The translations under genes were made by a program, and so were the position numbers. Shown piece after piece: positions 7,269 through 12,982 of a stretch of 64,000 nt of DNA. Each line of letters starts with the position of its first letter. Position 1 is the stretch's first letter. This DNA is from Thermococcus thioreducens (lineage in GTDB: Archaea; Methanobacteriota_B; Thermococci; Thermococcales; Thermococcaceae), in the NCBI RefSeq assembly GCF_002214545.1, contig NZ_CP015105.1, forward strand, positions 310,001 to 374,000, in the 5' to 3' direction. The notes beneath the pieces are model-generated. The model was not told the DNA's origin. It worked only from the letters and a program-made list of their open reading frames with translations, and made no database searches.

Positions 7269-8291
7269 TCAGCTGGCCTCCTCCCCTCCCTGGGGCAATG
7301 GCTTCCGGTACTCATACGATATTCCGTCGTCTATTATGGCGAAGACCTCGTCCTCACCCTCTATGTAGTGTAGTACCGGCTTGTCCACAAGCTCGAAGGT
7401 CGTCTCCAAATCCTTGGGGGTCTTCAGGACGACCCTCTTCTGGACAGGCCCGGGTGCGCCCTTGACGATGTACGGCCTTATCTTGGCCAGCTCATCCTTG
7501 GATGGCCTTGATGTGTAAACGTATCCCACCAGGGGTATCAGCATCAGGAGTGCCAGCAGTGTGGTCATTACCTTCGCCGTATCGAGGCTGCTGGTTACTC
7601 CCAGAACGCTTGCGCTGACTTCTTCCTTGGTTGTCGTTGTCAGGGTTTTCTTTGCGCTCTTGCTGGTGTCAGTGAAGTAGTAAAGCCCGGCTCCGCTGTC
7701 CCTGATGAGTTCAACCTCATGGTCAAAGCTCCTGGTTATCTCCTTTCCACCGACGTTGCCGGTTCCCAAGACCTTTGTCGTTATTATCACCCTTCTGTTT
7801 AGCCTTTTCATTCCAAGCTCATTGGACACCTCTGCGGTCATCCTGTCCAGCTCTCCCATGTCGAGCGTATACTCCACTGTGAATCCGCCGTTCTGGAGCT
7901 TGCCCTTCTCATCAAAGAGCGTGCCTTCCCACATGGTGACTTCTTCGCTCCCCTTGGTGACGTAGTACACAACCTTTCCTGTGACTTCATAGGTGCCGGT
8001 GCTGAGCGGCGGGTTTGAGCTGTATGTGTACGTCAGCAGGAACCTGTCAACGAGGGATATCGGATATTCGTCTCTGAAGACCATGTACCCGTAGATTTCG
8101 TTGGGCTTGAGATAAGCGGCGTGCTTCAGCTGTCCCTCTTCCTTAAACGTTCCCAGGGTCTGGGTGTTCACCACGTACGGACTTGCGCTCATGAGCTTCA
8201 CTGAGTAAAATGCAAAGACCAGGAAGAGAATCAGGAATACTCCCAGGACTTCCTTCCTTCTAATAAATCCAGCAAACTTTTCCTTCTTCAT
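7269..8291 (-). CDS. DUF5305-type membrane-anchored extracellular protein
   Basis: A 340-aa protein with an N-terminal membrane segment (about 14-33), an extracytoplasmic beta-rich domain (about 40-220), a second membrane segment near 237-260 and a short cytoplasmic tail. This layout and the PNEIYGYMVFRDEYPISLVDRF region fit DUF5305, a family found beside archaeal signal peptidases. Last gene of the SipW-type operon; its start overlaps the preceding gene by 4 nt. A role in assembling or anchoring the exported proteins is inference. Confidence 0.75.
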   Translation of the reverse strand: MKKEKFAGFIRRKEVLGVFLILFLVFAFYSVKLMSASPYVVNTQTLGTFKEEGQLKHAAYLKPNEIYGYMVFRDEYPISLVDRFLLTYTYSSNPPLSTGTYEVTGKVVYYVTKGSEEVTMWEGTLFDEKGKLQNGGFTVEYTLDMGELDRMTAEVSNELGMKRLNRRVIITTKVLGTGNVGGKEITRSFDHEVELIRDSGAGLYYFTDTSKSAKKTLTTTTKEEVSASVLGVTSSLDTAKVMTTLLALLMLIPLVGYVYTSRPSKDELAKIRPYIVKGAPGPVQKRVVLKTPKDLETTFELVDKPVLHYIEGEDEVFAIIDDGISYEYRKPLPQGGEEAS

Positions 8292-9337
8292 CCTTCACAT
8301 TCTCCTGTGCCGTTTTCATGATTGGAACTGTGGTCGTGATTGCATCCGCACTCATACTGCTCCTGACAGCACCCGTCGTGGTCGTCACAGCAATCCACGG
8401 TCACGACGAGAGCGTTGCTCGTTATGCCGTACTGAACTATGGTTGCCCCTTCGTTCAGGCTGTACTCGCCGCACGAGGTAAACTCCTGCTGTCCTCCGGG
8501 GTTCATTCTGGTGGATATCGTTATGTTCATGTGGACGCTCCCCTCCGCTGGAACGGTTACGTTCCATTCCATCTTTGTGGCAGGCTGGGCGTCGTGTCCC
8601 CCGTGTCCTCCTCCACAGTGTCCTCCGCACTGGTTGCCATCGTTTGCTGCCCAGAACCTGTACGTGCCGGCGCTTGCACCGGTCTCGCTGAGACTAACGT
8701 TGAACTCCGCAGGTATCGTGTCGGTTATGGTCAGGGTGAGGTCATCCCCGGTTGGGTTTGTTACCAGTATCTGGAAGACCCATTCTTGGTACGTCTTCAG
8801 GGGTATCCCGCTGGTGTTGCCGTAGAGGAGTATCTTTTCTATGGTCGGGTCACCAGTGACGACGAGTTTTATTGGGCAGGTTTCTACAACGGCATCTCCG
8901 ACATCCCACCGGGCGCGCATTGTAATCGGGATTATGTACTCTCCCGGGACGACATCGGTTACGTTCACGTGGCCGGCAAAGGTGTACTCATCCTCTGGGG
9001 CTATCATCCGCTCAGCGCCGTCTTCGGTTTCTATGAACATGTCCACGTTGCCCGGAAGACTGGAGTAGTCCGGGTCGAGGGAGATCCATACATCCTTCAT
9101 TTCGTTCAGATAGTTTCTTACCGTCAGCGCGTCAAAGTATGTTTCGCTGTGTGGGGTGACCTCAACAACCGCGGCATAGCCGTCTTCACAGTCAAAGCCG
9201 AGGTACTCCTTATCATGGGAAACGACGGCAACTTTGACTTCTCTCGATGCTTCAAGGCTTACAAAGGTCCCACTGGAGCCTACGAGAATCAGCGATGCCA
9301 GTGCGAACGTTATAATAATTGAGAACAGAGCTTTCAT
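8288..9337 (-). CDS. Exported His/Cys-rich protein of the signal-peptidase locus
   Basis: A 349-aa protein with an N-terminal signal/anchor (about 5-25, SSGTFVSLEASREV at the cleavage region, resembling SipW-processed exports), two beta-sandwich-like regions, and two metal-ligand-rich stretches: about 237-248 (Cys/His/Gly) and 316-347 (nine Cys, four His plus Asp/Glu). Such a tail suggests metal binding or disulfide bonding at the cell surface. It overlaps both neighbours by 4 nt, so it is translated with the signal peptidase and the DUF5305 protein. Function is unknown. Confidence 0.75.
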   Translation of the reverse strand: MKALFSIIITFALASLILVGSSGTFVSLEASREVKVAVVSHDKEYLGFDCEDGYAAVVEVTPHSETYFDALTVRNYLNEMKDVWISLDPDYSSLPGNVDMFIETEDGAERMIAPEDEYTFAGHVNVTDVVPGEYIIPITMRARWDVGDAVVETCPIKLVVTGDPTIEKILLYGNTSGIPLKTYQEWVFQILVTNPTGDDLTLTITDTIPAEFNVSLSETGASAGTYRFWAANDGNQCGGHCGGGHGGHDAQPATKMEWNVTVPAEGSVHMNITISTRMNPGGQQEFTSCGEYSLNEGATIVQYGITSNALVVTVDCCDDHDGCCQEQYECGCNHDHSSNHENGTGECEG

Positions 9338-10398
9338 GTCCTAAACACCTCCGATATCTCTCTAAGGAGGGAAGTCCTCCTTCTCCTGATTCTAAGGATG
9401 TCCTCGTTCCCAATGCCCAATATTACGTAGAAAATTCCGAGAAACAGGGAAATCTCCACCAGAATGGCTAGGAGAGGCACCATCGGGTGAATTCTGTAGA
9501 GTGCATCCAGAACCGGGACTGGAAGGATTGGCATGTATGCGTTGACTTGTAATCTGGGCGAATACATTGCAGTTTTTTGGGGGGCCTTCAGGGTAACCGT
9601 GATGGACCTCTCTTCCCCCTCCTCCAGCATGAACCCGTCCTCTGATACGGCTGTGATGGTCGGCCCCATTGAGACAAAATACGTCATAGGGTACAGGTTT
9701 CTGTTCTTTATGGTAATTTCCTGCTGGAATTCCTCCCCTGGAAGATACCAGCCCTCCCTTAGTCCCCCCGCTGAGGTGACGGAATAGGTTATGGGTACTG
9801 TTTCCCACGAAACAAATGTGGATACGGCCACCATGATTAGGAGGAACACTGATGCCAGTGCATAGAGTGTCCTGAACTTTACTGTGATTTTTTTCTTTCT
9901 TTTTCTGGAGTGTGAAGTCTCGTCTCCTGCGAATGCTAAAATCCCGACTAGTATTAGGGCACCTGCAAGGAGCACCTTTCCTCGGTCTGAGAGGCCTGTT
10001 CCGAGATAGTTTCCAAGCTGGGGTATCCTTAGGGGAGTGCCTTTAACTGTAATCACCGTGCCCGCTATTCTCTCTTTGGGTATCGGGGGGATGTCGTGGC
10101 TTTGCTGGTCGGTTGCTATGTTGTTGTCCCCTTTTGTTATGTACCCGTCTTCGGTAATGGCGTAAACCCTGTGAACTGTCCATACATCTCCAGTTTGAAA
10201 AACGATGATGTCCCCCACTTCGGGATTTCTTGAAATGGGGTTGATGAAAAATACATCTCCCTTGTTTATGGTGGGTTCCATGCTCCCGGAGTATGCGTAC
10301 GACATAAAAACCGGCCTGTCAATGAGCATGCCTACGAGGGAGCCCGTAACGAGGATGCCTATGACCGTTAGTGCGAGGTACTCCACTACCCTTCTCAT
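9334..10398 (-). CDS. Signal peptidase I (SipW/ER type) with C-terminal extension
   Basis: A 354-aa membrane protease. A membrane segment at about 8-27 is followed by box B SGSMEPT with nucleophile Ser39, then His76 (WTVHRVYA) in place of the bacterial lysine, and Asp91 (KGDNN): the Ser-His-Asp arrangement of archaeal/ER and SipW enzymes. Beyond about residue 150 lie further membrane segments around 139-156 and 178-195, an Ig-like extracellular domain (about 200-290) and a last membrane helix (about 300-325). The extension is not part of housekeeping archaeal signal peptidases, so this is probably a dedicated enzyme for the exported proteins encoded next to it. Confidence 0.9.
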   Translation of the reverse strand: MRRVVEYLALTVIGILVTGSLVGMLIDRPVFMSYAYSGSMEPTINKGDVFFINPISRNPEVGDIIVFQTGDVWTVHRVYAITEDGYITKGDNNIATDQQSHDIPPIPKERIAGTVITVKGTPLRIPQLGNYLGTGLSDRGKVLLAGALILVGILAFAGDETSHSRKRKKKITVKFRTLYALASVFLLIMVAVSTFVSWETVPITYSVTSAGGLREGWYLPGEEFQQEITIKNRNLYPMTYFVSMGPTITAVSEDGFMLEEGEERSITVTLKAPQKTAMYSPRLQVNAYMPILPVPVLDALYRIHPMVPLLAILVEISLFLGIFYVILGIGNEDILRIRRRRTSLLREISEVFRT

Positions 10399-10904
10399 CC
10401 GCAGCCTCCTCCCCAGGCTTCTATTGTAATTCCCTCACTGTAGTCTCCCAGGTGGAGGCCGTAGGTGTCAATCCTCACTCCAACACCTACGCTATCGTTG
10501 GCATTCAGTTGGACTTCAACTGTACCGCTCCAGTTCCCCTCAAACTTCCCGACAAAGAACCCCACCTTCTGGTTTTCTGAGCCTATCCTCACACATATCT
10601 CGCTATATCCGGTCTGGCTCTGGTTATTTTTAATGATAAAGGCGTTATTAAATACATATGTGGAATTTGCACCCAGTCCCTCCCCGTATCCTGGATACAA
10701 TGGGCTATCCGGTGAGATATCGATAACAAGAACACCACTATCAGAGTAAGCGTACGGGGGAACGGGATAATCAACCGATAATGTTCCGTTTTCTGGAGTA
10801 GCGTAGACAACCGTGAGGGGGTCTGCGGAGTATAGCTCCCACACTCCTATGAGTAGAACTATGATGATTCCAATACTTGTGCCAACCTTTGTTGTCCTTT
10901 TCAC
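10395..10904 (-). CDS. DUF1102-type exported protein (169 aa)
   Basis: A signal/anchor helix (about 9-25) precedes a beta-rich domain with the motif YPVPPYAYSDSGVLVIDIS, shared with the two following exported proteins (PYAY-N/S-D-G-x-LVID). The GTG at 10904 is preceded by GGGGGAGAG. Its 3' end overlaps the signal peptidase start by 4 nt. The common layout (short leader, PYAY...LVIDxS, GLG.S.Y.F..F.V.N) suggests a surface or fibre subunit processed by the adjacent peptidase. Confidence 0.8.
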   Translation of the reverse strand: MKRTTKVGTSIGIIIVLLIGVWELYSADPLTVVYATPENGTLSVDYPVPPYAYSDSGVLVIDISPDSPLYPGYGEGLGANSTYVFNNAFIIKNNQSQTGYSEICVRIGSENQKVGFFVGKFEGNWSGTVEVQLNANDSVGVGVRIDTYGLHLGDYSEGITIEAWGGGCG

Positions 10905-10961
10905 ATCTCTCTCCCCCTACATATATGATAAAAAGGAGCAAATGCTCCGGAACTAAACTGT

Positions 10962-11495
10962 TCACTCTTCATCGCACGGTCCAGGAACCGCGTAGAACTG
11001 AACCTGTCCGTTTATTGCGTCTCCATCAACCAAGCCAGTGCTGTCCAGAATAAGTCCAATAGGCACGACTTCGCCGGGCATCACGGTTACATCGAGGGTG
11101 GTCTCACCGGGCTGGCCTGTGTAGTTCCCGACAAAGAACTTGACACCACCGTCTCCGCTGTAGGTTATGTGCATGCAGATGGGGGTCCCTTCCCAGAGGT
11201 CGTTGCTGACACCGAAGACTTCCTTGAACACGTAAGTGCTGTTCGGGCTGACGCCCTCACCGAGTCCTTCCTGCCAGTTTCCGTTGTACTTGCTCAGGTC
11301 TATGACCAGCATACCGTTGTCGTTAATGTACGCGTAAGGCTGCATAGGCCGTAGGTCTATAAGCTCACTGTCATCCGGGACAACCTGTATATGGACGCCT
11401 CTGTCGGCTTCAAAGTATGCAAAGTGAGCGCTACTTGCTGCTACTGCAACTAGGAGCCCTATCATAAGTGCAAAGAGTCCTATGATCTTTCTCAT
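10962..11495 (-). CDS. DUF1102-type exported protein (177 aa)
   Basis: A paralogue of the next two exports: leader MRKIIGLFALMIGLLVAVAA, then AHFAYFEADRGVHIQVVPDDSELIDL and PYAYINDNGMLVIDLS. The ATG at 11495 has GGAGGTGG upstream and starts 1 nt after the previous gene's stop region. The processed N-terminus (A-x-F-x-x-F/Y) resembles TasA/camelysin-type exports. Probable surface protein or filament subunit. Confidence 0.82.
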   Translation of the reverse strand: MRKIIGLFALMIGLLVAVAASSAHFAYFEADRGVHIQVVPDDSELIDLRPMQPYAYINDNGMLVIDLSKYNGNWQEGLGEGVSPNSTYVFKEVFGVSNDLWEGTPICMHITYSGDGGVKFFVGNYTGQPGETTLDVTVMPGEVVPIGLILDSTGLVDGDAINGQVQFYAVPGPCDEE

Positions 11496-11496
11496 C

Positions 11497-12132
11497 TCAG
11501 CCACCTCCACACTCAATAGGTGCTTCGCTGGCAGGCCATGCCTGGATGGTTATGTTTATGTCGTAGCTTCCCAAGGTGTTGGCTGCTGCGAGTTCCATCC
11601 CAACGCCAAGTGCCTCCCCGGGTTCGAGATAGAAGCAGACATCTCCGACGGCTGTATCGGAGTTGTAAGGCTGACCGCCTCCGTTTGTGTTGTACATCAT
11701 GCCGTTGGGCTCGTAGAATGAGACCATTCCGGGATCCGATGAGGTGATTCTGACTACGATGGTTTCCTGCTCCCAGAGGTGGTTGCTCACGTTAAATACC
11801 TCGTCAAAGTTGTACCTGCTCTGCGGGCTGAGTCCCATTCCCCTTGCAGGAACTGACATATTCTGCTCCTCGTCCCACTTCCACCAGCTCTCATCATCCC
11901 ATCCTGGCCAGTTGGGATTGTCCGCTGAGAAGTCAATAACAAGTTGCCCACCATCATTCAGGTACGCGTAGGGCTGAACCGGCGTCAGGTCAATGAGCTC
12001 GCTGTCGTCGGGAACGACGGCGATATGAACGCTCCTCTGGGCCCTGTAGTCCCTGAAGGTTGCGCTCGTGCCTAGTGCAAAGGCCGCCGCGATCATCAGC
12101 CCCAGCATACCCAGGGCCAAAACTTTCTTCAT
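11497..12132 (-). CDS. DUF1102-type exported protein (211 aa), first gene of the operon
   Basis: Leader MKKVLALGMLGLMIAAAF, then GTSATFRDYRAQRSVHIAVV and the shared PDDSELIDLTPVQPYAYLNDGG region. It is longer than its paralogues by a loop rich in Trp/Asp/Glu near residues 75-95. The ATG at 12132 has GAGGAATG upstream; the longer frame to 12258 covers the promoter. As first and best-expressed gene of the operon it is the best candidate for a major surface-fibre subunit. Confidence 0.82.
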   Translation of the reverse strand: MKKVLALGMLGLMIAAAFALGTSATFRDYRAQRSVHIAVVPDDSELIDLTPVQPYAYLNDGGQLVIDFSADNPNWPGWDDESWWKWDEEQNMSVPARGMGLSPQSRYNFDEVFNVSNHLWEQETIVVRITSSDPGMVSFYEPNGMMYNTNGGGQPYNSDTAVGDVCFYLEPGEALGVGMELAAANTLGSYDINITIQAWPASEAPIECGGG

Positions 12133-12218
12133 GGTACATTCCTCCATGTCTTCCAATACCGACACCCTAGGCAGAAGGCCATCATGGGGATGCCTCATTG
12201 ACTGTGGCGGGGTCAACC

Positions 12219-12230
12219 TATATAGTAAAT
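12219..12230 (-). promoter_or_regulatory. TATA box of the DUF1102/signal-peptidase operon
   Basis: On the reverse strand TTTACTATATAGG lies about 90 nt before the ATG at 12132, giving a leader of roughly 65 nt. It is the only clear promoter between the two regulator genes and the six-gene operon. Confidence 0.5.
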
Positions 12231-12315
12231 TCCGGCTTACCGGGTGGTAATCCCTCATTACCTGGGATGAAACAACTTAATTTGATTAAAACAGGCGGGA
12301 TATAGCGGTGATTCG

Positions 12316-12762
12316 CTAAAACAGCCTCTTAATTTTCCTGTGGTGGATTATACTTATGACCAGGTACACCATGGCAGCCAGCAATAGGGACATGCTGCCG
12401 AGATACCAGCCCGCGATTATGAATATTACCGACGTCCCCATGTAGAAGGTGCTCCAGCTGATGTCGTGCTTGTTGACAACTTCCATATAGACAGTTACAT
12501 CCTCCGGAATCTTCAGAAGGGTAACTATGCCGTGGTTAAATGTTACGACACCTTCCCGCTCCAGCTTAGGGATATGCGTCTGGATCAGGCTGACATAGAC
12601 GCTTTTCCTGTGCTTCCGGTTGGTGTCTCCCTCCCTCTCAGCTATGTATTCCACCAGTTCCCTGAGTTCGGCATGGCCCTCTCTCTGTTGGAGGAACTCA
12701 ATCATCATCATCCTCCTTGTGTTTCCGAGGATCACGGTTGAGCTGTCAATACTCCCGGCCAT
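12316..12762 (-). CDS. Membrane-anchored winged-helix regulator (DUF7344-like)
   Basis: A 148-aa protein. A winged-helix domain spans about 12-90 (LGNTRRMMMIEFL...LREL VEYIAEREG...YVSLIQTHIPKLEREGVV), followed by two membrane helices (about 105-140). DNA-binding domains tethered to the membrane by helix pairs are common in archaeal surface-structure loci. It lies 180 nt upstream of the DUF1102 operon on the same strand and probably controls it. Confidence 0.75.
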   Translation of the reverse strand: MAGSIDSSTVILGNTRRMMMIEFLQQREGHAELRELVEYIAEREGDTNRKHRKSVYVSLIQTHIPKLEREGVVTFNHGIVTLLKIPEDVTVYMEVVNKHDISWSTFYMGTSVIFIIAGWYLGSMSLLLAAMVYLVISIIHHRKIKRLF

Positions 12763-12766
12763 CGTA

Positions 12767-12982
12767 TCACCGCAGCCTGTAATGCTTTCTTTTATTCCCG
12801 TTGGTGTAGAATGCCTCTACTTTCTTCTGCTCCACGAGTTTCCTGAGGGTTCTCTCAACCTTCTGCCTTGTACAGAAGATGCCTCTTTCGTTGAGAAACC
12901 GGGTCAGAAAAGCAACACTGAGCGATCCGTGCCTTCTGAGGAGGTCTGTAATCTCAACCTCCAGGTTAACTACGTTGCTCAC
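12767..12982 (-). CDS. Small winged-helix DNA-binding protein, 71 aa
   Basis: A 71-aa protein that is nearly all one winged-helix domain (VEITDLLRRHGSLSVAFLTRF...RQKVERTLRKLVEQKKVEAF). It ends 4 nt before the membrane-anchored regulator, so the two are co-transcribed, with a TATA box near 13044-13053. Likely a local regulator of the export locus; the target is inferred from position only. Confidence 0.75.
   Translation of the reverse strand: MSNVVNLEVEITDLLRRHGSLSVAFLTRFLNERGIFCTRQKVERTLRKLVEQKKVEAFYTNGNKRKHYRLR

Follow-up and report, generated by a model that had tools for sequence, protein, structure and literature searches.

A compact gene cluster of Thermococcus thioreducens predicted to encode a surface pilus of the archaeal donor-strand kind

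The question raised by this locus is what is made from three paralogous small proteins that are encoded beside a signal peptidase. The locus lies in a stretch of 64,000 nucleotides (the window, bases 310001-374000) of the 2.07 Mb T. thioreducens chromosome, and the original prediction described it as an archaeal counterpart of sipW-tasA. Its eight genes (Table 1) are those that had been predicted, with open reading frames and Pfam/NCBIfam searches in agreement: three DUF1102 proteins (D1, D2 and D3), a peptidase (g3), g2, a DUF5305 protein (g1) and two regulators (g7 and g8). The spacing of the genes is operon-like, with 4-nt overlaps at D3/g3, g3/g2 and g2/g1, and gaps of 1 nt between D1 and D2, 57 nt between D2 and D3 and 4 nt between g8 and g7. 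The tight spacing claimed for the cluster holds from D1 to g1, but g7 and D1 are separated by 183 nt that carry a promoter of their own. D1 likely starts at the ATG at 12132 (211 residues) and D2 at the ATG at 11495 (177 residues), instead of at 12258 and 11516 as in the ORF list. Both upstream genes had been called winged-helix regulators, which g7 is by its DUF7344 match, while g8 has only sub-threshold helix-turn-helix matches.

Table 1. Features of the pilus-like locus, with positions in the window.
Feature	Position	Strand	Basis
Locus, eight genes	7269-12982	(-)	ORF list and Pfam/NCBIfam profile searches
g8: small winged-helix-like protein, 71 aa, GTG start	12767-12982	(-)	ORF; HTH-type Pfam matches sub-threshold
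g7: DUF7344 winged-helix regulator, hydrophobic C-terminal segments	12316-12762	(-)	PF24035 E 4e-19
Two imperfect inverted repeats, candidate operators: GGTAATgagggATTACC (12246-12262), GTAAgccggaatTTAC (12225-12240)	12225-12262	(-)	Conservation upstream of D1
D1 5' leader, possible hairpin ~12159-12198, Shine-Dalgarno GGAGG 12141-12145	12133-12216	(-)	Sequence, leader folds
g6 (D1): DUF1102 pilin-like subunit, 211 aa, signal peptide ends TSA, then TF	11497-12132	(-)	PF06510 E 4e-41
g5 (D2): DUF1102 pilin-like subunit, 177 aa, signal peptide ends SSA, then HF	10962-11495	(-)	PF06510 E 2e-36; AF2 model
g4 (D3): DUF1102 paralogue without cleavage motif or extra N-terminal segment	10395-10904	(-)	PF06510 E 4e-29, match confined to model positions 13-141
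g3: SipW-like Ser/His signal peptidase, 354 aa, C-terminal TM-Ig-like-TM extension	9334-10398	(-)	TIGR02228 68.1 bits
g2: DUF1102-like N-terminal domain, Ig-like adhesin-type domain, Cys/His-rich tail	8288-9337	(-)	Profile comparison, AF2, Foldseek
g1: DUF5305 membrane protein	7269-8291	(-)	PF17231 E 8e-12

All three small proteins belong to the DUF1102 family (PF06510; 141, 126 and 102 bits for D1, D2 and D3 against a gathering cut-off of 22.2). Each DUF1102 protein has two conserved cysteines, and D3 matched the D1/D2 profile at 100% when mature domains were compared. Small residues stand at -3/-1 before a conserved Phe in 19/21 scored homologues of D1 and 21/21 of D2. Among D3 homologues no conserved small residues at -3/-1, and hence no conserved cleavage site, were found; in D3 a hydrophobic helix is kept directly before the first strand and the membrane anchor is probably retained. 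Thus the expectation of three short exported paralogues stands for the DUF1102 relationship of all three and for the signal motif of D1 and D2, but D3 probably stays in the membrane. By its architecture D3 is the probable membrane-anchored base or initiator subunit.

The locus is a general feature of the order. DUF1102 proteins occur in 87/94 Thermococcales genomes (72/74 of good quality), and the locus recurs in all 20 of the Thermococcales loci examined, which were picked across six genera, in the order wHTH, DUF7344, D1, D2, (D3), peptidase, g2, DUF5305. D3 is present in about two thirds of these 20 loci and the small wHTH gene (g8) lies upstream of g7 in 16, being missing in four. In three g2 is shortened or absent, in one the peptidase is frameshifted, and a tRNA-Gln gene lies upstream in 16. 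The good genomes that have no DUF1102 (G026 and G041) likewise have no DUF5305, which fits loss as a unit. On the comparative evidence this arrangement is far beyond chance, because it recurs both in 20/20 Thermococcales loci and in Halobacteria.

The AF2 model of mature D2 (47 aligned sequences, pLDDT 85) is all-beta with ten strands, the first ten residues being poorly ordered and of lower confidence. In a search of 350,542 PDB chains its first-ranked match was AbpA (7ueg; E 1e-4, probability 1.00), the archaeal bundling pilus pilin of Pyrobaculum calidifontis. Ranks 2 to 4 were forms of FimA, two of them engineered or self-complemented, and rank 5 was the Sulfolobus thread pilin 7pnb; all five best matches are subunits of donor-strand filaments. 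The global superposition of D2 on AbpA is poor (TM 0.49, rmsd 9.4 Å), and so the likeness is one of kind of fold and not of close structure. A model of g2, used as a control for this search, matched Ig and adhesin domains instead.

By sequence, a profile of DUF1102 alone found no relative among PDB chains (9p0a reached 5.8% in profile comparison). When mature domains were compared, with signal peptides removed, the D1+D2 profile matched haloarchaeal Taf/DUF1102 subunits at 98.8% over 137 columns, and shuffled-column controls gave at most 1%. These haloarchaeal subunits match the NCBIfam fimbrial models TafE (E values to 3e-32), TafA, TafC and TafF, together with the PDB entry 9p0a, 'Pilin' (E 2e-17, or 1.5e-30 with the joint profile). 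The link from DUF1102 to 9p0a passes through haloarchaeal intermediates. In an alignment of both archaeal classes A(-1), F, R, D and N are invariant or nearly so. D1-D3 are probably fibre subunits, a role proposed for them at the outset and now well supported as a prediction by fold matches led by AbpA and FimA and by haloarchaeal relatives that match 9p0a and the Taf models.

A further pilin-like domain was found in g2. This protein had been described as a His/Cys-rich export, and it is secreted and has a Cys/His tail, but the description missed its DUF1102-like and Ig-like adhesin architecture. Its mature N-terminal domain, signal peptide removed, matches D1/D2 at 95.2%; the signal peptide ends in SSG in 17/17 scored homologues, with small -3/-1 residues preceding the conserved Phe in all of them. 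The second region is Ig-like in the AF2 model, and Foldseek matched it to the C-domains of streptococcal AgI/II adhesins and to integrin Ig domains. The Cys/His tail differs from one relative to the next, and some relatives are longer, with additional sequence on the C-terminal side. By analogy with chaperone-usher pili, where the fusion of a variable domain to a pilin domain points to a role at the tip, g2 is regarded as the probable tip adhesin.

The peptidase g3 is, as had been read from the sequence, a Ser-His signal peptidase with an Ig-like extension. It exceeds the cut-off of the signal peptidase I model TIGR02228 (68.1 against 51.85 bits), and its dyad motifs, SGSMEPT (Ser) and VHRV (His), align with the Ser and His motifs of SEC11. 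A regular expression found the Ser box and the His in 87/94 members of the g3 family, the misses being mostly pattern misses or split genes, and about 300 residues follow the His in the family. Against the Bacillus SipW equivalog model NF046067 it scores 40.4 bits, below the curated cut-off of 190. The DUF5305 assignment of g1 was likewise borne out by its PF17231 match, and the protein probably has two transmembrane segments and an extracellular beta domain. In the T. thioreducens genome a DUF5305 gene adjoins an extended signal peptidase in 2/2 cases, and the dedication of g3 to the exports of this locus, which it would cleave, is supported.

The same module was found in Halobacteria, where it comprises a DUF7344 regulator, DUF1102-like exports, the extended peptidase and DUF5305. 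A DUF1102 match on a Halocatena plasmid lies among genes for DUF5305, a DUF7344 regulator and a signal peptidase that carries the same extension, and three further plasmid DUF5305 loci have the order small export, peptidase, DUF5305. The DUF7344 protein of the haloarchaeal version L061 matches PF24035 at E 1e-26. Of 80 DUF5305 loci from archaea, almost all of them haloarchaea, the extended peptidase occurs in 67, a DUF1102-like protein in 61 and DUF7344 in 56. Six complete haloarchaeal genomes have only 2-5 TIGR02228 matches each, yet 9/9 of their DUF5305 genes lie within ~2.2 kb of such a peptidase, and the linkage of DUF5305 to the peptidase therefore cannot be chance.

From direct observations of gene content, conservation, peptidase dyad and signal motifs, fold resemblance and haloarchaeal relatives that are homologous to a solved pilin, we infer, with a probability of about 0.78, that the operon encodes a surface pilus outside the type IV class, of the bundling-pilus or Taf-fimbria kind. 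D1 and D2 would be exported and cut by g3 after the small residue that immediately precedes the conserved Phe. The N-terminal strand released in this way, with its alternating hydrophobic residues (GVHIQVV in D2), would then complete the beta-sandwich of the next subunit, and donor-strand exchange of this kind would build the fibre. g2, with its pilin-like and Ig-like domains, would cap the tip as an adhesin, and D3, keeping its hydrophobic helix, would sit at the base. At the membrane, subunits may be retained or passed on by g1, which by its architecture is probably an anchor or a partner in assembly, and by the Ig-like extension of g3, whose architecture would suit a chaperone. Transcription would be controlled by g7 and g8, probably through the GGTAAT repeats before D1.

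An alternative that we consider improbable is that D1, D2 and g2, though secreted and served by a dedicated peptidase, do not polymerise and are surface adhesins or sensors that are tethered to the membrane or associated with the S-layer. Monomeric adhesins commonly have Ig-like domains, and our literature search found no experimental Thermococcales filament from a DUF1102 locus. However, the paralogous pilin-like subunits have an N-terminal strand in common, the best fold matches are donor-strand pilins, and a solved pilin is found among the haloarchaeal relatives.

It is very unlikely that the locus is genuinely homologous to sipW-tasA, with D1-D3 as TasA/camelysin proteins that form biofilm-matrix fibres. 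The similarities that suggest this are the dedicated SipW-like peptidase, the small exports and the similar start of the mature protein (AxF); in addition, AbpA has been described as TasA-related (PMC9905601, PMC9674648). The D1+D2 profile, however, matched Thermococcales camelysin/TasA-like proteins at only 0.7% over mature domains, against 98.8% for haloarchaeal Taf/DUF1102, and on this comparison TasA/camelysin membership is rejected at the level of sequence. The camelysin/TasA models (PF12389, TIGR04088 and NF046066) and the cognate-SipW signal model gave no match to D1-D3 at E<=1. The proposed comparison with TasA folds turned out against the TasA assignment, since TasA was absent from the 50 best matches of the D2 model and AbpA came first. 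A genuine camelysin/SipW locus lies elsewhere in the genome: L059 (chromosome ~121235-125994) encodes a wHTH protein, two camelysin/cognate-SipW proteins, a SipW-like peptidase of 332 residues and DUF5305. Because it matches the camelysin, cognate-SipW and SipW models, L059 is the sequence-level counterpart of sipW-tasA. Thus what remains of the sipW-tasA comparison for the present locus is a dedicated SipW-like peptidase with small exports. Two parallel SipW systems, one of DUF1102 type and one of camelysin type, are told apart in a single genome. A third, lone TasA-like gene lies beside a DUF1616 gene.

That the genes contribute minor components to an archaellum or a type IV pilus is barely credible: no kind of archaeal pilus is commoner than the type IV filament (PMC4858521), but the operon has no genes for a type IV ATPase, platform or prepilin peptidase, g3 is SipW/type-I-like, and the modelled subunits are all-beta and lack a long N-terminal helix following the signal.

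The locus is best interpreted as encoding a putative Thermococcales representative of the archaeal donor-strand kind of pilus, closest to AbpA and Taf and with its own combination of parts. With AbpA bundling pili it shares a small predicted beta-sandwich pilin, the lack of type IV machinery and a hyperthermophilic archaeal host, but AbpA has no detectable sequence similarity to DUF1102. To the Taf fimbriae of haloarchaea (TafA/C/E/F, NF052520-NF052523; 9p0a), whose organism and gene list are taken from profile matches, the mature domains of D1 and D2 are homologous by profile through subunits that match the Taf models. The Thermococcales D1, D2 and g2 themselves match these models only weakly (E 0.001-0.06) and far below cut-off (g2 18.8 bits against 155 for TafE, D1 13.4 against 190 for TafA); the Thermococcales locus also differs in its tandem DUF1102 set and the probably membrane-retained D3. 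The Bacillus subtilis tapA-sipW-tasA operon likewise has a dedicated peptidase gene adjoining fibre-subunit genes, which are predicted ones here, and TasA fibres also form by donor-strand exchange (PMC9674648). Its subunit families are, however, unrelated by sequence profile; no TapA-like gene was recognised in the Thermococcus locus, and DUF5305 and the Ig extension of the peptidase are extra there. The thread of Sulfolobus acidocaldarius, Saci_0406 (7pnb), is a head-to-tail donor-strand archaeal filament for which cleavage by signal peptidase I has been proposed (PMC9715654); it is the fifth fold match of D2, but sequence similarity to DUF1102 was not detected.

No mention of DUF1102, DUF5305, DUF7344 or Taf fimbriae was found in the open-access papers searched. 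The three DUF families gain a joint and testable role in a compact pilus operon, which would be present in nearly every Thermococcales genome, genetically tractable species included, and in many haloarchaea.

The TATA element of D1 (~12217-12229) is flanked by the two inverted repeats, which are built on GGTAAT/ATTACC. Alignment of ten Thermococcus loci shows them to be conserved between diverging flanks, and they may be the operators on which g7 and g8 act. An Rfam search of the D1 leader matched no family and returned only neighbouring tRNAs and sub-threshold matches.

In 34/94 genomes, T. thioreducens not among them, D1 is preceded by a leader of ~110-165 nt, which occurs once in each of these genomes and, at E <= 0.01, in no other place; this leader too matched no family in Rfam. 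We tentatively raise, as a possibility that we would not expect to hold in full, that the SipW-Ig peptidase and DUF5305 form machinery that is widespread in archaea and dedicated to assembling DUF1102/Taf donor-strand pili, with the Ig-like extension as a tethered donor-strand chaperone, and that in one Thermococcus clade translation of D1 is governed by its two-state leader, a new class of cis-regulatory RNA. The leader of the 34 genomes appears to have two mutually exclusive helices, one of which would hide the ribosome-binding site, making it a candidate regulatory RNA for pilus production. Counted on real loci, helix P1 and the long-range helix P2 covary, with 10 double-change cells against 3.0 in shuffles, and 0/500 shuffles reached 10. 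The hairpin that hides the Shine-Dalgarno sequence, GCCTCC/GGAGGC, is paired in all rows of the alignment, and GCCTC is common to this hairpin and P2. When the leader was folded with the Shine-Dalgarno sequence forced open, P2 formed in 23/23 sequences.

Upstream of D1, the first pilin gene of the DUF1102 operon, a leader RNA is present in 34 of the 94 Thermococcales genomes compared, in a single copy per genome and solely before this operon; the window's own genome carries no D1 leader of this P1/P2 type. The RNA is composed of a hairpin (P1) and a long-range helix (P2), both of which covary. P2 and a hairpin that hides the Shine-Dalgarno sequence are mutually competing helices with GCCTC common to both, and we regard the leader as a candidate two-state regulatory RNA. 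Searching Rfam with it matched no families. The inverted repeats at the D1 TATA element are kept in ten Thermococcus loci and are candidate operators of the winged-helix regulator g7 and the winged-helix-like protein g8, encoded upstream of D1.

Features at the DUF1102 operon and related loci
Feature	Location	Strand	Remarks
Two inverted repeats around D1 TATA element	window 12225-12262	-	GGTAAT/ATTACC type
Leader RNA upstream of D1	loci L005-L034, e.g. L007:2059-2220	- (L007)	~110-165 nt
Lone TasA-like exported protein gene	L097:3982-4587	-	PDB TasA matches, E 0.025
Camelysin/TasA-type SipW locus, separate from DUF1102 operon	L059:5236-9994 = chromosome ~121235-125994

The second SipW locus, on the window's own chromosome, has its own DUF5305 gene; the strong DUF5305 type is sporadic across Thermococcales. 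An IS605 OrfB-type transposase gene lies nearby. PF12389 matches occur in 73 of the 94 genomes, and the lone TasA-like gene adjoins a DUF1616 membrane protein gene.

In one relative (L052:5272-6338, minus strand) a frameshift splits the peptidase gene, the remaining operon genes being intact. A contig labelled Mollicutes bacterium (L144), probably archaeal and misbinned, carries a DUF5305/peptidase/DUF1102-like cluster of haloarchaeal type.
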